Positions 51,874 to 64,000 of a stretch of DNA of 64,000 bases are shown in pieces. The DNA is from Acidobacteriaceae bacterium (GTDB taxonomy: Bacteria; Acidobacteriota; Terriglobia; Terriglobales; Acidobacteriaceae), in assembly GCA_003160215.1 (NCBI GenBank), contig PLQW01000154.1, positions 45,012 through 109,011 on the forward strand, written 5' to 3'. The notes under the pieces were generated by a model. It searched no databases and was not told the DNA's origin. It worked only from the letters and a program-made list of their open reading frames with translations. Every line of letters begins with the position of its first letter. Position 1 is the stretch's first letter. A program made the position numbers and the translations under genes.

Positions 51874-52094
51874 AAAAGCGATCTTTGAGTGTCCACCAGT
51901 AGCGCCGCTTCGAGGCCAAGAGGACACATCTTGAGCGACGCGGCATCGCTATTAATGCAGATGGACGAAATCGTATCACAGGCCCCATAGGGAGCGAGAC
52001 GTGCTCCACGGAGCCTGACATTCAGGGCCACGTGCTGGGTGTCTCCCATCCTGTACACGGGAACGTTTTGAGCGTTCCGTGGGAGACGGCGGAG

Positions 52095-52427
52095 AATCCC
52101 AAGGCTCCGGCTCTGTTTCCTTACGGCGGCTTTGACTCGCTTCTCGTAGGCGGCGAGCGCTCTCGCGATGGGCAAACGTTCTTCGCTCGCCGTATTGTCG
52201 CGTTCTTACCACAACTCCGGCGCCGGCGGTTCCGCGTGGCACTGCGCAGCTGCGATTTCTACGACGACCGGGCAGTGTGTCGCGACGTGCGCCGCAAGAT
52301 CGAGTTCTGGCTCGCTCCAGCCGCCGCCGTGTGGCAGACGATGCAGCGGATGCAAGCGGCGATGGACTCGGCCACACACCAGCAGTTGGCCAGCAGACGA
52401 ATTGACGGGCATGTAGTAAGCTATTGA
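52095..52427 (+). pseudogene. Truncated paralogue of the island gene 54675-56315
   Basis: APALFPYGGFDSLLVGGERSRDGQTFFARRIVAFLPQLRRRRFRVALRSCDFYDDRAVCRDVRRKIEFWLAPAA versus APAVFPYGGVGSLLVVGEPSRDGQTFFARRILAFSPELRRRRFHVPLRRCDFYDDRALCRDARRKLEFWLDPAA. Confidence 0.85.
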
Positions 52428-52438
52428 CATTACGCCGC

Positions 52439-52531
52439 GGAGAGGTGGCCGAGTGGCTGAAGGCGGCGGTTTGCTAAACCGTTATACGGTCAAAAGCTGT
52501 ATCGGGGGTTCGAATCCCCCCCTCTCCGCCA
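52439..52531 (+). tRNA. tRNA-Ser (anticodon GCT), CCA encoded
   Basis: GGAGAGG/CCTCTCC acceptor stem; anticodon loop TTGCTAA; long variable arm; GGTTCGAATCC T-arm; G + CCA at 52528-52531. Confidence 0.97.
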
Positions 52532-52561: not shown

Positions 52562-53749
52562 ATGATACCTTTGGTGATACCGAAAACCAAAGGTCGCCGT
52601 CAAGTGAACAAGGAAGTCAACCTCACTAAGCGTGTCAAAACGTCTCAGGGTTTGCGATTCTGTCCCGTCGTCATATCAGCTAATGGCCGGGTCAAACCTG
52701 ATTACATCCTCGTTGGCGGCGAGGAACAGCGCCATCCCGAGGGTGCCTATTACCTGGAATGGTACGAGGGCAGCAAACGCATCCGGCAGTCGGTCGGAAG
52801 GGACGCCGGCGTCGCCTCCGTACGGCGCCACCGTCAGCAACAGATTCTAGGCAGCAAAGCAGCAGGCATTAAGCTTGTTGATGAGGGTCAGGATGGCGGT
52901 CTGTCGTTGGCCGTCGCTGTTGCCAGCTACCTCGAAGATGTCAGGATCAGTAAGAAACCTAAGACCTATGCTGCCTACAAGACCGCCCTCGAGTATTTTC
53001 TCGAATCCTGCAATAAACCTGGTGTCATGGAGGTTGAACGTCAAGATCTCCTCCGCTTTTCAGCTTTCTTGCGCGACATCAAAAAGCTCCAGCCGCGCAC
53101 CGTCTACAACAAGTTCGAAAATGTGATGTCCTTTCTGAAGGCCAATAACATCCGCGGCCTCGCCAGCAAAAATGACTGGCCCCGCTACGTCGAGGATGAA
53201 CCCGAAATCTACGAGCGCGAGGATCTCGATAAATTTTTTGCTTCGTGCGAAGAAGACGAGCGTCTATGGTTCGAGTTCTTTCTGATGACCGGCATGCGGG
53301 AGCAGGAGGTGATGCATACGACGTGGGCCGAGATCAATTTCAACCGTGGAGTCGTCAATGTTCGCTATAAACGTGAGTACGGGTTCTCGCCCAAAGCCTA
53401 CAAAGGCCGTGAGATTCCCGTCCCGAACAAGCTCATTCACGCTTTGAAGAGATGGAAAGCGAAGGGCGATCTTGCGTGTCCTCTCCTGTTCCCAACTGCT
53501 GGGGGCAAGCCCAAATTGGACTTTCTCGATATCTGCAAGGCGATCGCGCAGCGCGCGAAGCTGAACCCCGACGACTTTTGGTTGCACAAGTTCCGAGCAA
53601 CGTTCGCAACGTGGGCGCTGTGGGGTGGTGTGGATTTGCGAACGGTACAGCAGTGGATGGGGCATTCCGATATGGAAAGCACCATGCGATATCTGAAGCC
53701 AAATCGAAGTCAGGCCGTGCGAGAAAAAGTTAACGCGATGTTCGGTTAG
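52562..53749 (+). CDS. Tyrosine-family site-specific integrase
   Basis: FLMTGMREQEVMHTTWAEINF...DDFWLHKFRATFATWALWGGVDLRTVQQWMGHSDMESTMRYL; 30 bp downstream of the tRNA. Confidence 0.93.
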   Translation: MIPLVIPKTKGRRQVNKEVNLTKRVKTSQGLRFCPVVISANGRVKPDYILVGGEEQRHPEGAYYLEWYEGSKRIRQSVGRDAGVASVRRHRQQQILGSKAAGIKLVDEGQDGGLSLAVAVASYLEDVRISKKPKTYAAYKTALEYFLESCNKPGVMEVERQDLLRFSAFLRDIKKLQPRTVYNKFENVMSFLKANNIRGLASKNDWPRYVEDEPEIYEREDLDKFFASCEEDERLWFEFFLMTGMREQEVMHTTWAEINFNRGVVNVRYKREYGFSPKAYKGREIPVPNKLIHALKRWKAKGDLACPLLFPTAGGKPKLDFLDICKAIAQRAKLNPDDFWLHKFRATFATWALWGGVDLRTVQQWMGHSDMESTMRYLKPNRSQAVREKVNAMFG

Positions 53750-54674: not shown

Positions 54675-56315
54675 TCACCAGGCGATGGCCGCCGCAGAGT
54701 CGACCTTCTCACCGATGCGCTGTCGGACTTCCTTGAGCCACGCTCTTGGATTGGTGCCATGAATCACGCGCCCCAGAAAGCCCAGCCGCTCGGCGGCATT
54801 GTTGTGGTTCCTCCGAATGTCGTCCTTGGTGATCCTGGTATACAGGGCAAGAAAACTGTCCATATTCCGAGGTTTGGCGAACACATAAGTCGCGTGGCCG
54901 AGCTGAGGGGTTTCAACAACGACAGCTTTCTCAACGTCGAAGATGTATTCGTCCCGAAACAAGTAGATCCGGCGTGCCCGGCGTGACAGCTGGCGATAGA
55001 AGAACGGGTCATAATCCGCACGCCAGCTGACCTGTGCGACATCAAAGTCACCGGGAAGATGTAGCCCGGAACACATTCGCTCGAGCTCCGTTTTCTCGAC
55101 CGCCCGATGTTCCAGGCACAGGCGGATCTGATCAAGAGCCTGTGAGTACTGACCAAAGCGGTGGTGAGTTGTTCGCGCCGTCTCCAATTGTTGCCGGAAA
55201 TCGGCTGAGAGTTTGACCTCCAGCCGGCTCGGCAACGCAGTCTCCCAAGTAGTGAGTTCCCACTCGCCTCGACGTTTGCGGCATTTGCCAGTTTGTACGA
55301 ATGTGCCCTCGACCTCGATTTTCGTTGCAAGTAAATGTTTCCACTGATTCCACGTGCGGTCCCAGAGCGTGTGGAGGGCGGCTGGATCAAGCCAGAACTC
55401 GAGCTTTCGACGCGCGTCGCGGCACAGTGCGCGGTCGTCGTAGAAGTCGCACCTACGCAGTGGAACATGGAATCGTCGGCGCCGGAGCTCCGGCGAAAAC
55501 GCAAGAATGCGACGAGCGAAGAATGTTTGTCCGTCCCGGGAAGGCTCGCCGACAACGAGTAGAGAGCCAACTCCACCGTACGGAAATACCGCAGGGGCCT
55601 CGGGGTCGGCCAGAAGCGCGTCGTAGCAGGCGCGCAATTCCGGCTGGCCGACGATGTTGAAGGCCCGCTCTAGCGCCAGTCGCTGGCTATGCGGTGCGCC
55701 TGCCGTTTTGAGTTCTAAGTCGCGCAGCTTGAAAGCGACGCGCAGCTCAGAGGGAGAAGCGCTGTCTGGAATATGCAAGATCTCGTACAGGGTCTGATGA
55801 TCGAGCCTGCCGTCGGCATGGGGCAAACGATAGAAGTAATCGCATAGGACCTCGCAGGGCAGGAAAACCGTACCGACGCCAAGGCCTCCGTGGTGAACTT
55901 CGGCCGAAACAAAGTGTTGATTTCGTTTGTCCGGTTTGGGCTGGCTGACGTAAGCGATTGGCACGTGGTAGAGATAACCCTTGGGGCCGGCACCCGCATT
56001 CTTAGTGATCAAGATCTCTGTACCAACCGCGTCTCCTTTCGGGACCGGAAAAGCGATGTCGTCACCGATAGCGACGTGAGATCCAATGAAACGGGACACC
56101 AAGAGCTTGGTTCGATTGGCGAACACACAGCTAGCGAGTCTCTCCTGCCGCTGGACGCTCACCACACGCTCGCAGCAGATGGGAGAGGACGAGGACGAAG
56201 TGGACGGCGTCGTAGGCATACGTTCGGCGGGCATTATAGGGTCGTCTTGCCAAAGTCCAAAACGCGGCATGGCGCATTCCAGTGTGCTTCCTGTAGAATT
56301 TCGAAAAGCCGCCAC
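54675..56315 (-). CDS. Unknown multidomain protein with a J-domain-like segment lacking HPD
   Basis: LYEILHIPDSASPSELRVAFKLRDLELKTAGAPHSQRLALERAFNIVGQPELRACYDALL, then the conserved block shared with 52095-52427. Confidence 0.6.
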   Translation of the reverse strand: MAAFRNSTGSTLECAMPRFGLWQDDPIMPAERMPTTPSTSSSSSPICCERVVSVQRQERLASCVFANRTKLLVSRFIGSHVAIGDDIAFPVPKGDAVGTEILITKNAGAGPKGYLYHVPIAYVSQPKPDKRNQHFVSAEVHHGGLGVGTVFLPCEVLCDYFYRLPHADGRLDHQTLYEILHIPDSASPSELRVAFKLRDLELKTAGAPHSQRLALERAFNIVGQPELRACYDALLADPEAPAVFPYGGVGSLLVVGEPSRDGQTFFARRILAFSPELRRRRFHVPLRRCDFYDDRALCRDARRKLEFWLDPAALHTLWDRTWNQWKHLLATKIEVEGTFVQTGKCRKRRGEWELTTWETALPSRLEVKLSADFRQQLETARTTHHRFGQYSQALDQIRLCLEHRAVEKTELERMCSGLHLPGDFDVAQVSWRADYDPFFYRQLSRRARRIYLFRDEYIFDVEKAVVVETPQLGHATYVFAKPRNMDSFLALYTRITKDDIRRNHNNAAERLGFLGRVIHGTNPRAWLKEVRQRIGEKVDSAAAIAW

Positions 56316-56375: not shown

Positions 56376-59087
56376 GTGAGGATTGGTGTCCCAAGGGGAG
56401 TAGTATTTGCGGCGGCCCTGGTTGCGGTCGTAATTCCTGTCTCGCGCTACGCCTACACCTGGTTCCGCGACATTTCTGCCGCCAAACACATCAATTACAG
56501 CGGTTTGGAGCATCCGGAACGTTCCACGGATCCGCAAGTCCTCCTGGCGGAAGCCAATCGCCTTTACTGGCTAAACAACGGGCCAAGAGCTGCCCCGTTG
56601 TACGCGAAAGCCGAGAGTCTCTTCGCAAGTCGAGGCGATGCCAGGAATGAGCTCTACGCCAAGATTGGACGCCTTAGATCGGAAGCCGAGACGATGTCAT
56701 TCGTCGAGCTCTCGCGATTCTTGAACGACCAGTTGCAGAACCCGATCATGCGTAACGATCCCAGGTTGCGCGTCTGGTGCCTCGCCGCAAAGGGGTACAC
56801 CGACATCGAGATTGATTATCGAGCGGAGAAACAAGACTGGTCGGAGGCCCAGCAGATCGCAACGAGTCTCGGGGACAACCGTTTGGCGACCAGGGCCTCG
56901 GGTGAATTGGGCGTAATCGCCTTCCTGGAGGGAAATTCCGGCCGGGCGGCGAAGCTCTTGGGCGGAGCCCTCGTCTCAACGATGGCTAATGGCGACGAGG
57001 GCGGTCAGATTCGCTTTCTGGAAATGATAGGAAACGGCCTGGTCGAGGTCAACCGCACCTCCGATGCCCTGATGTTTTTTGAGAGGGCCATCAAGATAGC
57101 GGAGGCTGACGAAGATTCGGGACTTCCTTTCATGGGGTACGAAGGAAAGGCGCAAGCGCTAGTTGCGTTAGGGAGGCCAGATGAAGCAAAGAGAGTGCTC
57201 CAGGGCGCACTTGCGAAGGCCCGATCGCAGCAGAAACGCGGGCATGAGGCACAATTGCTGATTGTCCTCGGCAAGCTCGCGGCGCAAACCGGAAACAAAC
57301 AAGAGGCCATCGCCGATTTGGAGGATGCGGGGCAGTTCGCAGCAAGAGTCCAGTTCTACCGAATGGAAGCTGACGCCATGTTCGGGCTGGCGAAACTTTA
57401 TCGTGATTCCGGAGATCTCGCCACCGCAGACGCCCGTGCGACACAGGGTCTGGTTGCAAGCCAGCGTGTTGGCGATCGTTACTATGTACCGCGGAACTTG
57501 ACGATTTTGGCTGACCTCAAAGCACGGCGCGGGCGCATCCCAGAAGCGAAGGCACTTTACAAGCATGCCGAAGACGTCATCGACGGCATGCTTGGCGGCG
57601 ATGACTCCTATTGGAACAGCTCCATCGCCGCGGCCATGAGTCAAACTTACCTCCAACACTTCGAACTCGTTGCGAAGGAGGCTGACACAGCCGGTGCGTT
57701 TCAAATCTTGGAGCGCGTCCGAGGACGAACTCTGGCTAGCGCTTTGGGAGACAGAAAGGCAGATCCGCAGGCAGGGTCTACGGAAGCTACGACACTGGAC
57801 AGTTACGTTGCTACTACGCAAACCCGCCTGATGCAGACCAATAGTCCCGTCGAGCGTGAAAAGCTGCTCGATGCTCTGGCGGAATACGAGTGGCGGTTAC
57901 GGTTGGCGTGGAACCAGGGAGATCAGCGCTTTCCTATCGATCCAGCACCACTGACCCAGGTTCAACAGAGTCTGAGGTCAGACGAAGCGCTACTCGAGTA
58001 CGTACTCGACGAGCCGAACTCCTTCTGCATTTCCATTACGCGTACGACCGCAAACCTGCGTGTGCTACCGGCTGGTCGCAATCAGATCGAAAAACTGGTC
58101 CAGCGGTACGTTGATGAAATCCGCGCGAAAAAAGCTGGTGTTGAAGAGGCGAAGCAACTACAGGCGTTTCTTGTGCAACCGATTCCTGAAACATCCACGG
58201 GCAAACGATTCATCGTTGTGCCGGACGGCATATTGAACCTGTTGCCTTTCGAAGCGCTACGGAATACCGAAGGGCAGTATCTGTTAACGTCCGATGTCAT
58301 CAGCTATGCTCCCTCGGCCACCGTTCTTGATGCGCTGCGCAGGGGGGACAACCAGCAAGAAGCCCCTCGACCGTTTCTCGGAGTGGGCGACGTTGCTTAC
58401 GACAATCAAGGCCGCGCCAGGGAAAGAATCCCGGCTTCTGAGACACTGCGGGGTCGGTTCGTTCGCGGTTTTGCTGACTTCGTCGGAATGCCCCTTCATG
58501 ACCTGCCGCAGACACGAGAAGAGGTCGAGAGCATTAGTAGAATTGTGGGAAAGGGCGCAGAAACCCTGTTTGGTGTGAGCGCTACCGAGACTGCATTCAA
58601 GAAAGAACCGCTTGACCAGTTTCGCGTGTTGCATTTGGCTGTCCACGGCTTCGCCGACCCGCAATTCCCCGAGCGATCAGCGTTAGTCCTTGGGGCCGAC
58701 CCGAAAGCTGGTGAAGACGGTTTGCTGCAGGTGCGAGAAATCAAGAAGTTGCGATTAAACGCCGAGCTGACGACTCTTTCTGCATGTGACACGGGAGTGG
58801 GCAAATTGCAGGGAGAGGAAGGCGTCAGCGATTTGGCGGAGGCCTTTCTGGCAGCTGGCGCGAAAACCGTTGTTGCGAGCCTGTGGAGCGCGGATGACAC
58901 GTTTGCCAGTGCACTGATGGAACGCTTCTACCAGCGTCTAGCGCTTGGAGAGGAGACGAGTTCGGCGTTGCGAGGCGCCAAGCTGGACCTGCTGGCGAAA
59001 TACGGTGAACAAGTGAGCCCATTTTATTGGGCAGCATTCGTAGCGATTGGGGACGCATCAACTCCTATCAGGATTGGGGCGCAATGA
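56376..59087 (+). CDS. Membrane-anchored TPR-CHAT domain protein
   Basis: N-terminal TM (VVFAAALVAVVIPVSRYAYTWF); TPR-like region; CHAT motifs VLHLAVHGFADPQFPERSALVLG and LTTLSACDTGVGKLQGEEGVSDLAEAFLAAGAKTVVASLW. Confidence 0.92.
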   Translation: MRIGVPRGVVFAAALVAVVIPVSRYAYTWFRDISAAKHINYSGLEHPERSTDPQVLLAEANRLYWLNNGPRAAPLYAKAESLFASRGDARNELYAKIGRLRSEAETMSFVELSRFLNDQLQNPIMRNDPRLRVWCLAAKGYTDIEIDYRAEKQDWSEAQQIATSLGDNRLATRASGELGVIAFLEGNSGRAAKLLGGALVSTMANGDEGGQIRFLEMIGNGLVEVNRTSDALMFFERAIKIAEADEDSGLPFMGYEGKAQALVALGRPDEAKRVLQGALAKARSQQKRGHEAQLLIVLGKLAAQTGNKQEAIADLEDAGQFAARVQFYRMEADAMFGLAKLYRDSGDLATADARATQGLVASQRVGDRYYVPRNLTILADLKARRGRIPEAKALYKHAEDVIDGMLGGDDSYWNSSIAAAMSQTYLQHFELVAKEADTAGAFQILERVRGRTLASALGDRKADPQAGSTEATTLDSYVATTQTRLMQTNSPVEREKLLDALAEYEWRLRLAWNQGDQRFPIDPAPLTQVQQSLRSDEALLEYVLDEPNSFCISITRTTANLRVLPAGRNQIEKLVQRYVDEIRAKKAGVEEAKQLQAFLVQPIPETSTGKRFIVVPDGILNLLPFEALRNTEGQYLLTSDVISYAPSATVLDALRRGDNQQEAPRPFLGVGDVAYDNQGRARERIPASETLRGRFVRGFADFVGMPLHDLPQTREEVESISRIVGKGAETLFGVSATETAFKKEPLDQFRVLHLAVHGFADPQFPERSALVLGADPKAGEDGLLQVREIKKLRLNAELTTLSACDTGVGKLQGEEGVSDLAEAFLAAGAKTVVASLWSADDTFASALMERFYQRLALGEETSSALRGAKLDLLAKYGEQVSPFYWAAFVAIGDASTPIRIGAQ

Positions 59088-60316
59088 ATCTGACTCTGGA
59101 CAAACGCAAGAAGATTTTCGACAAGGTCTGCCGGTTGGTGGAAACCAAACATTTCAACCCTGCAATGAATGGGGTGGATTGGAATGCCCTGGTTCAGAGC
59201 CGAAGGGATCGAATCCTTGCGTGCGATGGGGCTGAGGCATTCGAGAAGGAAGTGCATAAGTTGGTGGCAGAACTCAAGACCAGCCACACCGGGTTCCGGC
59301 ACGCCGGAATGCGCAATATACCGGCGAGACACGCAATCAATGCGACTTTGCAACGCTTCGCTGTGAATGGGACGGAACGCTGGATGTTTCAGGATGTGCA
59401 CAGAGGTGGCCCAGCGTACTTAGCCGGGATAAGACCGGGAGATTTGTTGCTCGGAACGGGCGAGCGAGAGATTCGCCCTCCAGAAGATCTAACGTTCTCT
59501 GCTGGAGGGTCAGCGGAACTTGCGATTGAACCGCTGCACGGAGACGTCGAGTGGGTGAAGCTTCGGCTGCCCATGCCGAAGTCCAAGAAGCACCCCGTAA
59601 CCGCGCCCGAAGCAGTTCATGCGGAGATGCTGACCGATCAAATCGGTCTGCTTAAAGTGGCCATGTTTCCCGGCGCGATCGGAATCGATGTCGCCAAAGA
59701 CATAGATCGGGGAATTGCGGCTCTCAATGGTTGTAGCCGTCTCATCGTCGATTTGCGCGGCAATACAGGTGGAGGAATCGGAGGGCTGCGGCTGATGAGC
59801 TATCTGACTCCCGGCAAATTGGAGGTCGGCTACAGCCTGACTCGAAAGCGCAGGGAGCGTGGGTATCGAAGAGAAGAGCTGACCCGTTTTGGACGAATTC
59901 CGTCTCGCAAAGGCACCCTCTTTTGGCTCGCTGCCCGATACGCCCTCGTGGACAAGTCCATCCTCGTAGTTACGGAGGGACTTGGGCCACGTCGGTTTCA
60001 CGGACACGTTGTCCTGATGGTAAACGAGCACACTGCCAGCGCTGGTGAAATGGTGGCTGCTTTTGCAGAGGAAAACAACCTGGCAACCATCGTGGGAACC
60101 AAGACCCCTGGTCGTTTGCTGAGCGGAGGCGCCTTCAAGGTCGGTCACGGCTACATTCTGGGGTTGCCAGTTGCTGGGTATCTGACCTGGCAGGGCAGGA
60201 TGTTGGAAAACAATGGGATCATTCCGCGCGTTTCTGTTGAATTATCACGAGAGGCGCTGCGGGAAGGCAGGGACACGCAATTGGAAAAAGCGGTCGAGAT
60301 CGTCAAGAGCTTCTAA
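59084..60316 (+). CDS. S41 family (C-terminal processing type) peptidase with PDZ-like segment
   Basis: GGPAYLAGIRPGDLLLGTGE (PDZ); LIVDLRGNTGGGIGGLRLMSYL; VLMVNEHTASAGEMVAAFAEENNLATIVGTKTPGR (Ser and Lys motifs). Confidence 0.88.
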   Translation: MNLTLDKRKKIFDKVCRLVETKHFNPAMNGVDWNALVQSRRDRILACDGAEAFEKEVHKLVAELKTSHTGFRHAGMRNIPARHAINATLQRFAVNGTERWMFQDVHRGGPAYLAGIRPGDLLLGTGEREIRPPEDLTFSAGGSAELAIEPLHGDVEWVKLRLPMPKSKKHPVTAPEAVHAEMLTDQIGLLKVAMFPGAIGIDVAKDIDRGIAALNGCSRLIVDLRGNTGGGIGGLRLMSYLTPGKLEVGYSLTRKRRERGYRREELTRFGRIPSRKGTLFWLAARYALVDKSILVVTEGLGPRRFHGHVVLMVNEHTASAGEMVAAFAEENNLATIVGTKTPGRLLSGGAFKVGHGYILGLPVAGYLTWQGRMLENNGIIPRVSVELSREALREGRDTQLEKAVEIVKSF

Positions 60317-60621: not shown

Positions 60622-61692
60622 ATGCTGATCGACACCGAACGCAATGCGAATGTGTATCGGCAGATGGTCGAAGCTATCAGATCCGGTCGTCCGTTTGGAT
60701 TTGGCGGTGCGGGGGTGAGCGCAGGACTTGGTTATCCATCTTGGGTCCAGCTGATTAATCGCCTAGCCGAAGAGGTCCGAAGAGTTCGCGGCGACGACGT
60801 GGTCGATCTGAATGGCCGTCCGTTGAGGCTTGACGACATTCGCGACGTGCGCCCTTTACTCATCAGGGCTGAAATACTGAAGCACAACCTCGGCGAACGG
60901 TACTTTGAATTCATGAGCGAGACATTCGGGCCAGTCGATCGAAATGCTGATTCCATCGATGACCTAGTCGCGCTACCGTTCAAGCACTTATTGACTAGCA
61001 ACTATGATCCGGCCCTCGAACGTGCAATGGTGAACGGGGGTGGCAATGCTCATTCAATTTGCCTCGTACCGGAGGAGATCGCTGATTTCATCAATCACCG
61101 CGGCGAGGTCAACTACGCCCGTCGCGTTGTGCATGTTCACGGCAGATACGACCGTCCCGACACCCTAGTTCTCACCGAAGCAGATTACGCCCGCTGTTAC
61201 AACGCCAATGAGATTCGAACGTTCTGGAACATCATTGCTGTTGACGAGATCTGTGTTTTCCTTGGCTTTTCGTTCGCAGATGACGACCTTACAGACGGCT
61301 TTAACCTAATGAACTTCCAGAGGCTTAACCGGCAATTTGCGGGAGTCCGTCACTATGCCTTAGTCGCGATCGAAGACCCGACCAAAGAAGTTGGTGAACG
61401 CATGGTTTACAACATGCGTTACGGGGTAGAGCCTGTTTTTTTCATTAGGCAAGATGCACAATTCAGCGGGTACACCGCCGCGCTGAGGCAGATTCGACGC
61501 GACGTCCTCCCGCGCGCGGCTGCCGTGATCAATCCACAGGTCACCGCGCCTCGACTCGCTCCTGAAGGAGTCGTGCCCGTAGAAGCGCCCGCCGATGCAA
61601 ATCGAGGCCCCGCAGTGCACCGTGACCTTGCAGCTCTTGAACAAATCACTGAACGGAACATCCAGCTTCAGGTTGACGGAGACCTTGAATGA
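60622..61692 (+). CDS. SIR2-family protein (SIR2_2-like)
   Basis: IRSGRPFGFGGAGVSAGLGYPSWVQLINRLAEE; LLTSNYDPALERAM; VVHVHGRYDRPDTLVLTEADY; CVFLGFSFADDDL. Confidence 0.88.
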   Translation: MLIDTERNANVYRQMVEAIRSGRPFGFGGAGVSAGLGYPSWVQLINRLAEEVRRVRGDDVVDLNGRPLRLDDIRDVRPLLIRAEILKHNLGERYFEFMSETFGPVDRNADSIDDLVALPFKHLLTSNYDPALERAMVNGGGNAHSICLVPEEIADFINHRGEVNYARRVVHVHGRYDRPDTLVLTEADYARCYNANEIRTFWNIIAVDEICVFLGFSFADDDLTDGFNLMNFQRLNRQFAGVRHYALVAIEDPTKEVGERMVYNMRYGVEPVFFIRQDAQFSGYTAALRQIRRDVLPRAAAVINPQVTAPRLAPEGVVPVEAPADANRGPAVHRDLAALEQITERNIQLQVDGDLE

Positions 61693-64000
61693 TGCGAATC
61701 ACCAGACCCGAGTTAATGGAGCGCCTCGAGGAGTCGGCCTCACTGGGTTCGTTACTTGTAGTTGGAGAACCCGGATCTGGCAAGACGTGGCTCTTAACAG
61801 AGTTCGTCAAGCGACGTAAGTCGGCAGGAGACACCGTAGTACTGATTCGTGCGGAAGACCATGCTGTACGTTCGCTATCAGAATTGCAGGTGAGTTTGGG
61901 GGTGTCCGATATTGCTGGCGCTCTCGGTACGGTTCATAAAACCTCATATCTCGTGATCGACTCGCTAGACGCGCTTCGTGCTGAATCTTCGCAGAGAGCA
62001 TTCCGAGACCTAATTCGACTTGTGACTCGCCAGGCTCCTCAATGCCGGATAGTGGCTAGCATGAGAAGCTTTGACGCACGCCAATCCGTGGAATTTCATT
62101 CTCTGTTCCCACCGCAGGCCGAACCGGTGTTAGGGTCTCTCGCAATACCAGTGCGTAACCTCCCTGTGCCGCGGCTTGATGACCAAGACCTTGAACAAGC
62201 GTGCGCAAGCGACGCACGTCTCACCCCTGTGGTTGAGCATGCGTCCGCGGCAGCGGCCGAGCTATTACGTGTCCCATACAATCTCTGGCTCGTCATCAGA
62301 CTTCTTGACTTAGGGGTCACAGTGGATTGGTTTTCGACGGTGCAATCTGACGTCCAGCTACTTGAGTCTTACTGGAGGCACCGAATCGACTCAAAAACGG
62401 ACGCAGCAGATCGACAATCTCTGTTGACGGAACTTACTAATCGCATGGTGGGCACAAACACTCTCTCCGTTGCAACCCGTGACGTGTTGCCTGTGGCGGC
62501 TCCCAAGCAGCTGCAAACACTTCTAAGCGACGAGGTGCTGTATCAGAGCGCCACGGGGAGATTGTCTTACGCCCACAATATCCTTTTCGATTTTGCTGTC
62601 GCCCGTCTTTTGATTGATGAGGAGAATCTTACCGAATTTATTAGCGACCAGCCGGCCAGGAGTATCTTCTATCGACCGAGCATCGCCTACTTCTTGACCC
62701 GCCTATGGTTTGTTGATCGTGCTGTGTTCTGGTTGGTTACACAGAAGCTCTTCTCTATGGGTGACACGATTCCACCTCGCGCGATGGTCGTCGCGGGAAA
62801 CGTTCTCATCAACGTCGTAACTAGTGACGAAGACCTCGAACCGCTATTTCACCTTCCATCACAAGTTCGCGTAATAGCGACGCTATTTCTGTTGCGTGCG
62901 ATGCAAGCATTTGATTCTCTGGCGTCTAGGAAGCAAAAGATTTGGACCAATCTCCTTTGCCGCCTCGCAACCGAGCCTCACATCCAGTTCATCAATGAGT
63001 ACATCGGACTGCTAGACGTAGCGTCTACCGCAAATCCGAATGATGAAGCACTGCTTCGCGCGTCGATACGATACTTGAAGTGGATGTGGGAAGAAGCAAA
63101 GCGAGTCAAAGCGGCACAGACCCAGGAACTCAGCTCGCTTGCTGCTGCTAGAGTCATACCAATAGTTGCAAGGCTGTTCGCAGCTAACTCCGCCGAGGCT
63201 GGTCAGGCGTTGCGCTTCGTCTTAGATCGATTCGGGGAACCAACAGCCGCTGCAAACGAAGCATATTGGTTGGCGAACAACGTCGACCATTTTCTGGCGT
63301 TAGACCCCGAATTGGTGGTTGATCTGTACCGCAGAGTCTTCGCACACGAAGAACGGTCCCAGGAGCGTACTCGAATGGGCGGCAGCGTCGTGCTAGCAAT
63401 GACCAGCACTCGTGCGCAAGATTTCTCGATGACTTATTACATTCTCGGTCAGAAATACAAAAAGGTGCTGGAACATGACCTGTTCATAGCGGCACGGGCT
63501 GCAGCAGAAGCGATAAACGGCGAGGTCGAAAGGCGAGAAGGGGATACCGTTAGCAAATTGGGCGTCTACGATACTAAGATCGTGCTGTACGGGGTAGAGA
63601 GTCGATTGAGATCGGACAGAAGTGAGATTTGGGATCAAGGCTACAGAGATTCTGAAGGCCTCGCAATACTCCAGCAGCTCCTACAGACGCTCTCAGAAAA
63701 CATCGCAGCGAGCAGAATCGCAGAGGTTCGCTACCATGAAATCGTTGCGACTATTGCATCTGCGAACCGCTACGCCGTGACATGGAAACGCTTCCTCGAA
63801 CACTGCGAGCATCAGCCAGAGTTCTTGGCATATTCAACAGATTTGCTTCTCATTCCTGAGTTGCTAGCGGCCCCCGAGACAACGGTCGCGGCGGGACAAG
63901 CGATCCGAACTGGTTTTACCAACGTGAAGGTGTCTGCAGCCTGGCGTTCTGAAGTGCAGAACGCTATTTTACGAGTGCCGACATGTGCCGTTGTTCACGT
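61689..64000 (+). CDS. Large P-loop NTPase (STAND/AAA-like), incomplete at the window end
   Basis: Open frame read by hand to 64000 with no stop: MMRITRPELMERLEESASLGSLLVVGEPGSGKTWLLTEFVKRRK (Walker A) ... TSYLVIDSLDALR (Walker B); absent from the ORF track because it has no stop in the window. Confidence 0.85.
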   Translation, partial: MMRITRPELMERLEESASLGSLLVVGEPGSGKTWLLTEFVKRRKSAGDTVVLIRAEDHAVRSLSELQVSLGVSDIAGALGTVHKTSYLVIDSLDALRAESSQRAFRDLIRLVTRQAPQCRIVASMRSFDARQSVEFHSLFPPQAEPVLGSLAIPVRNLPVPRLDDQDLEQACASDARLTPVVEHASAAAAELLRVPYNLWLVIRLLDLGVTVDWFSTVQSDVQLLESYWRHRIDSKTDAADRQSLLTELTNRMVGTNTLSVATRDVLPVAAPKQLQTLLSDEVLYQSATGRLSYAHNILFDFAVARLLIDEENLTEFISDQPARSIFYRPSIAYFLTRLWFVDRAVFWLVTQKLFSMGDTIPPRAMVVAGNVLINVVTSDEDLEPLFHLPSQVRVIATLFLLRAMQAFDSLASRKQKIWTNLLCRLATEPHIQFINEYIGLLDVASTANPNDEALLRASIRYLKWMWEEAKRVKAAQTQELSSLAAARVIPIVARLFAANSAEAGQALRFVLDRFGEPTAAANEAYWLANNVDHFLALDPELVVDLYRRVFAHEERSQERTRMGGSVVLAMTSTRAQDFSMTYYILGQKYKKVLEHDLFIAARAAAEAINGEVERREGDTVSKLGVYDTKIVLYGVESRLRSDRSEIWDQGYRDSEGLAILQQLLQTLSENIAASRIAEVRYHEIVATIASANRYAVTWKRFLEHCEHQPEFLAYSTDLLLIPELLAAPETTVAAGQAIRTGFTNVKVSAAWRSEVQNAILRVPTCAVVH

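Follow-up and report, generated by a model that had tools for sequence, protein, structure and literature searches.

What might two proteases accomplish when their genes overlap on a mobile element? The question is raised by a stretch of 64,000 nucleotides from an Acidobacteriaceae bacterium (assembly GCA_003160215.1, contig PLQW01000154.1, positions 45,012 to 109,011), here called the window, which encodes a TPR-CHAT protease (56376..59087, + strand; 903 aa, GTG start) and, overlapping its end, an S41/PDZ peptidase (59084..60316, + strand; 410 aa). An initial annotation had placed both open reading frames (ORFs) at these positions, which ORF and Pfam analysis bore out, and had proposed that one protease activates the other or that CHAT releases S41 as a toxic effector. 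Genes for a sigma factor and a membrane anti-sigma factor were found to recur beside the pair on conjugative elements, and a switch based on regulatory proteolysis is therefore indicated: most likely the two proteases serve to switch genes on and off, and not to release a toxin.

Conservation of the CHAT-S41 gene pair

CHAT-S41 is a real, conserved gene pair on mobile DNA of soil Acidobacteriota. The two genes directly adjoin each other in 22 Acidobacteriota loci (window included), so that the adjacency, set beforehand as the refuting test of the initial annotation, held. The 4-nt ATGA stop/start overlap (59084..59087, + strand), indicative of translational coupling, is identical in 13 of these 22 loci. 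CHAT followed by S41 is the usual order, the remaining co-directional loci are closely spaced, and in loci L033, L035 and L037 the genes are convergent. Adjacency was lacking at the ends of contigs, in decayed copies and for one remote S41 protein that is exported. Such strong conservation of the linkage makes a joint function of the two proteases very probable; this part of the earlier interpretation stands, but no support was obtained for S41 as a toxic effector released by CHAT.

Members of the S41 family (E<1e-30) were detected in 12 of 297 genomes sampled from the phylum, and a wider scan of genome contigs revealed 12 more clear relatives, all from Acidobacteriota. No S41 homologs were found in PLSDB or IMG/VR, and phage records gave only weak matches (23-39%). 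A phage or plasmid origin of the pair was rejected on the absence of homologs from these two databases. A broken copy of the module was recognized elsewhere in the window genome, at L043 (G000:C183:28500-39156), where a decayed S41 fragment accompanies a C-terminal piece of the anti-sigma protein that is joined to transposase-like sequence.

An anti-sigma/sigma pair linked to the proteases

Clustering of neighboring genes revealed a third partner, absent from the initial annotation: a recurrent membrane protein beside CHAT-S41, whose gene adjoins that of a sigma factor resembling the extracytoplasmic function (ECF) type. Alignment and hydropathy analysis of this protein family identified an invariant GC...H-x3-C-x2-C motif and a single transmembrane (TM) segment with a positive inner flank. 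The AlphaFold2 (AF2) model consists of a helical head, the TM segment and a beta sandwich, and the predicted layout is a cytosolic Zn-type head, one TM segment and an outer Ig-like beta domain. The H-x3-C-x2-C motif, the single TM segment and the adjacent sigma gene classify the protein as a Zn-type (ZAS) anti-sigma factor, although no Pfam family was matched. The match of the sigma neighbor to the sigma70-ECF model TIGR02937 (E=5e-11) fell slightly short of the curated cut-off of 42.9 bits, with 42.5 bits in the window genome and 37.1 bits in L033.

Both genes of the window genome are located beyond the window end on the - strand, after SIR2, STAND and 5'-3' exonuclease genes. The anti-sigma gene, recognized by neighbor clustering and its motif, corresponds to positions 67049-67816 (L002 15561-16328), and the ECF-like sigma gene to positions 67813-68421 (L002 16325-16933).

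At 17 loci, a member of this anti-sigma family is encoded no more than 10 kb from CHAT-S41. Its gene adjoins S41 in L033, L035 and L037, and in L039 the sigma, anti-sigma, CHAT and S41 genes form one co-directional run in which they overlap or nearly touch. Among the 297 genomes, with the anti-sigma family counted at E<1e-40, nine contain both this family (11 genomes in total) and the S41 family (12 in total), a highly significant co-occurrence (Fisher p=2.7e-13). Evolutionary distances also covary between the families (CHAT-S41, r=0.80; CHAT-anti-sigma, 0.75; S41-anti-sigma, 0.70; Mantel p about 0.001).

Features of the two proteases

The Pfam CHAT model (PF12770; 232 bits, E=1e-68) matched residues 591-893 (58146..59054, + strand), which assigns the larger protein to the CHAT (caspase-HetF, clan CD) proteases. 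The N-terminal TM segment, TPR-like region and His/Cys motifs recorded in the initial annotation were all recovered: hydropathy analysis predicted one N-terminal hydrophobic segment (residues ~3-21; 56382..56438, + strand), TPR_12 and TPR_MalT were matched, and candidate catalytic residues His757 (HLAVHG; 58644..58646, + strand) and Cys804 (SACDTG; 58785..58787, + strand) are invariant among aligned homologs. The N-terminus is in register with the starts of homologs. In L032, L034 and L039 the CHAT N-termini resemble signal peptides and the proteins look exported (alignment and hydropathy), and the charge pattern of those in L033, L035, L037 and L038 favors an N-in/C-out orientation. No close sequence relatives of the CHAT protein were found in PDB.

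Both the Pfam match (Peptidase_S41, E=1.6e-25) and the AF2 model (pLDDT 88), whose fold matched D1P (D1 protease), CtpA and CtpB (E~1e-20), place the smaller protein in family S41. PDZ_6 and Tricorn_C1 gave sub-threshold Pfam matches, and the PDZ-like stretch (residues 104-131; 59393..59476, + strand; E=1.7e-5) is likewise below the cut-off. As initially noted, there is no obvious signal peptide: neither a signal peptide nor a TM segment was predicted in the window protein, and an export signal was found in none of the S41 family members.

The active site of CtpB is composed of Ser309, Lys334 and Gln338 (PMC3808539), so that the Lys lies 25 and the Gln 29 residues after the Ser. For the window protein, this canonical Ser-Lys-Gln triad of S41A C-terminal processing peptidases was ruled out by alignment. 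Relative to candidate nucleophile Ser319 (60038..60040, + strand), the canonical Lys position (Ser+25; alignment to 6vbb) is occupied by Arg344 (60113..60115, + strand; R, Q or E in the family) and Ser+29 by Gly348 (G, A or S in the family). The Ser/Lys motifs had initially been described as intact; the lysine in question, Lys340, sits at Ser+21 and is not conserved.

Three residues are strictly invariant in all 17 aligned S41 sequences, whose identity to the window protein extends down to 38%: Ser319, His68 (59285..59287, + strand), a candidate general base, and Glu375 (60206..60208, + strand). They may represent a Ser-His-Glu site of the Tricorn/CPAF type, and it is plausible from the alignment that S41 uses a different triad of this kind. 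Comparison of the N-terminal His region with Tricorn/CPAF structures gave no match, and no convincing PDB sequence match was obtained for the N-terminal part.

A proposed proteolytic sigma switch

These components define a possible four-gene regulatory module of integrative or conjugative elements in Acidobacteriota, with CHAT-S41 as its proteolytic half, comprising (i) an ECF-like sigma factor, (ii) a membrane-spanning anti-sigma factor, (iii) a membrane-tethered TPR-CHAT cysteine protease and (iv) a translationally coupled S41/PDZ serine protease. On the comparative evidence, we see an even chance that the membrane anti-sigma factor is a target of the proteases, whose action releases the sigma factor to control mobile-element genes. 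CHAT would be activated once its TPR region, or the outer domain of the anti-sigma factor, senses a signal, and would then clip the anti-sigma factor. S41, cytosolic by prediction, might degrade or trim the leftover anti-sigma fragment or a partner, and the freed sigma factor would switch on element genes, i.e. transfer genes and possibly neighboring defense cargo. Such a system would follow Craspase- or DegS/RseA-like logic without CRISPR.

If CHAT acts outside and S41 inside, the anti-sigma factor would be a natural shared substrate, since its domains lie on both sides of the membrane. Direct activation of one protease by the other is complicated by the predicted topology, with CHAT exported in several homologs and the S41 family devoid of export signals. 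The most specific version of the switch, in which an outward-facing TPR-CHAT and a cytosolic, non-canonical S41/PDZ protease would jointly dismantle the anti-sigma factor, so that the freed ECF sigma factor commands both conjugative transfer and defense cargo independently of CRISPR, is put forward tentatively.

Several observations weigh against the switch. We infer all of its cleavage steps. The canonical Lys is missing from S41, so that its activity is uncertain, and CHAT topology judged by charge is ambiguous in the window's own clade. Shared vehicles alone could yield the covariation of CHAT, S41 and anti-sigma distances. The sigma system does not require CHAT-S41, since sigma/anti-sigma genes without the protease pair were found in genome G274 (twice), in G196 and on contig C210 of the window genome. 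In the window, about 6.7 kb of cargo genes separate CHAT-S41 from the anti-sigma gene. Nine CHAT-S41 loci, mostly on short contigs, have no anti-sigma gene within 10 kb, and in L019 the only one is 36 kb away. Finally, no promoter motif common to the sigma, CHAT and type IV secretion system (T4SS) genes was found; in one clade a TTGACA-type block is conserved ahead of the sigma genes, but it is absent upstream of CHAT.

The mobile elements and their cargo

The pair in the window lies downstream of a tRNA-Ser(GCT) gene (52439..52531, + strand), a probable island integration site, which is directly followed by a tyrosine recombinase/integrase gene (52562..53749, + strand; Phage_integrase E=2e-23). 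No attR for this insertion was identified, as no repeat of at least 12 bases was present downstream on the contig and the other genomic matches were different tRNA-Ser genes. No T4SS was found on the window's contig either, and the term "conjugative" is therefore supported for its relatives only.

In about 11 related elements (L025/L100, L027/L101, L033, L034, L035, L037, L097, L040 with VirB4 assigned by position, L069, L070 and L071), the sigma/anti-sigma operon is divergent from a trb/VirB4 T4SS operon. Three of them (L069, L070 and L071) have divergent members of the sigma/anti-sigma family facing T4SS operons and contain no CHAT-S41. The sigma pair thus seems to regulate conjugative elements of Acidobacteriota in general. 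At L098, L099, L022 and L029, the closest relatives of the window, a gene for a LysR-type regulator is divergent to the sigma gene at the place of the T4SS operon elsewhere.

Between the integrase and CHAT genes, a 546-aa protein with no assigned family is encoded on the - strand (54675..56315). It has a 507-aa homolog in a second, paralogous element of the same genome (L072, G000:C210:54000-67807), which also carries an integrase-like gene and sigma/anti-sigma genes but no CHAT-S41. A fragment similar to the 546-aa protein (FPYGG..SLLV.GE.SRDGQTFFARRI) is located immediately upstream of the tRNA-Ser gene (52032-52427, + strand) and is probably left over from a previous insertion at this tRNA.

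Downstream of S41, the window contains a SIR2-like gene (SIR2_2; 60622..61692, + strand; L002 9134-10204) and a gene for a STAND-like ATPase (61689..64000, + strand, extending beyond the window end; L002 10201-14202, 1333 aa). The latter matches PADLOC candidate PDC-M54A over almost all of the STAND part (E=8e-185), while SIR2 is encoded separately. A phmmer search found no SIR2 homolog at any other CHAT-S41 locus, and SIR2-STAND was rejected as a functional partner of the pair on this basis. Different genes occupy the slot elsewhere: a Tiamat-like TmtA gene (E=1.6e-125) with a Schlafen AlbA_2 gene after it, between S41 and anti-sigma in L034 (10140-13736), and genes for a LmuB-like (Lamassu-like) SMC protein and a phosphoesterase in L025. 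The defense-island context suggested initially is thus retained only as defense-like cargo beside the pair.

Alternative explanations

These cargo genes (SIR2 with STAND PDC-M54A in the window, TmtA with Schlafen in L034, LmuB-like SMC with phosphoesterase in L025) raise the possibility that CHAT-S41 is itself anti-phage cargo of an abortive kind, in which a TPR trigger would activate CHAT, leading to S41 activation or host-target cleavage and cell arrest, with the sigma pair as nearby core machinery. CHAT proteases are known defense effectors (Craspase, SAVED-CHAT; PMC9729208, PMC11229360), and the paralogous C210 element carries sigma/anti-sigma without the proteases, as separable cargo predicts. 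We nevertheless consider this role, which is the main rival to the switch, rather unlikely. It is the anti-sigma family, not SIR2-STAND, that is conserved beside the pairs, and the four genes of L039 are co-directional and near-touching. There is no toxic domain, and CHAT carries export signals in several homologs. No PADLOC model covered the pair: CHAT matched BovA (Borvo) over 57 aa only (19 bits, 9e-5) and S41 gave no match.

The best structural neighbors of the S41 model include the CtpA-LbcA and Prc-NlpI enzymes, S41 proteases that have TPR adaptors. The pair could accordingly form an envelope or T4SS-assembly complex without any sigma role, in which the TPR part of CHAT serves as the S41 adaptor (cf. 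NlpI-Prc, LbcA-CtpA) and wall or transfer proteins are trimmed; the T4SS adjacent in many elements would fit. This is improbable, as no S41 family member has a signal peptide, unlike CtpA and Prc, close relatives of the window have a LysR neighbor instead of a T4SS, and it offers no explanation for the linkage to the anti-sigma family. It is very unlikely that CHAT alone is catalytic and that S41, as a pseudo-protease, provides a scaffold or adapts substrates, as the replaced Lys and Gln might suggest, since the invariance of Ser319, His68 and Glu375 in 17 sequences fits a different but intact triad.

Relation to known systems

In the type III-E Craspase, TPR-CHAT Csx29 cleaves Csx30, an inhibitor of the ECF CASP-sigma (PMC10028731). 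The loci described here share with the Craspase cassette a TPR-CHAT protease that has a His-Cys dyad and is linked to genes for an ECF-like sigma factor and its inhibitor; this Craspase-like arrangement was found with the anti-sigma and ECF-like sigma genes. However, a membrane Zn-type anti-sigma factor takes the place of Csx30 as inhibitor, the CHAT protein is either tethered to the membrane or exported, S41 is coupled to it as a second protease and the vehicle is a conjugative element. With 20.8 bits, where the NCBIfam Csx29 model requires 300, the CHAT protein falls outside Csx29. No Cas7-11 or other CRISPR protein families were present among the scanned neighbors, although no search aimed at CRISPR arrays was made.

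Other defense-linked proteases offer parallels. CalpL cleaves the anti-sigma factor CalpT (PMC11417357) and SAVED-CHAT works via a proteolytic cascade (PMC11229360), but the proteases of CalpL/CalpT/CalpS and SAVED-CHAT are different ones, and no SAVED domain, cyclic-nucleotide sensor or CRISPR protein was identified at the present loci. A PDZ-protease acting in transmembrane signaling that ends in sigma activation is also found in DegS/RseP-RseA and CtpB-SpoIVFB, the S41 enzyme CtpB acting in regulated intramembrane proteolysis (PMC3808539). Here, in contrast, a CHAT cysteine protease would replace DegS, and S41 has neither a signal peptide nor the Ser-Lys-Gln triad. Prc-NlpI and CtpA-LbcA likewise combine an S41/PDZ fold with a TPR partner, but they are periplasmic and their TPR partners are lipoproteins that contain no protease domain.

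No description of a CHAT-S41-anti-sigma module was found in the papers searched. Within this literature the combination is undescribed, and it is a variation on the theme of protease, anti-sigma and ECF sigma factor rather than a toxin cascade. To our knowledge, CHAT proteases have been linked to sigma/anti-sigma pairs only at CRISPR loci. The presence of the same arrangement, with a second protease, on conjugative elements suggests a possible origin of the Craspase output branch; if the proposed switch is correct, the Craspase sigma branch would have in it a counterpart on mobile elements, or an evolutionary source. Little work has been done on the mobile elements of this phylum, and the module is a candidate for how they may sense stress and time their transfer or defense.

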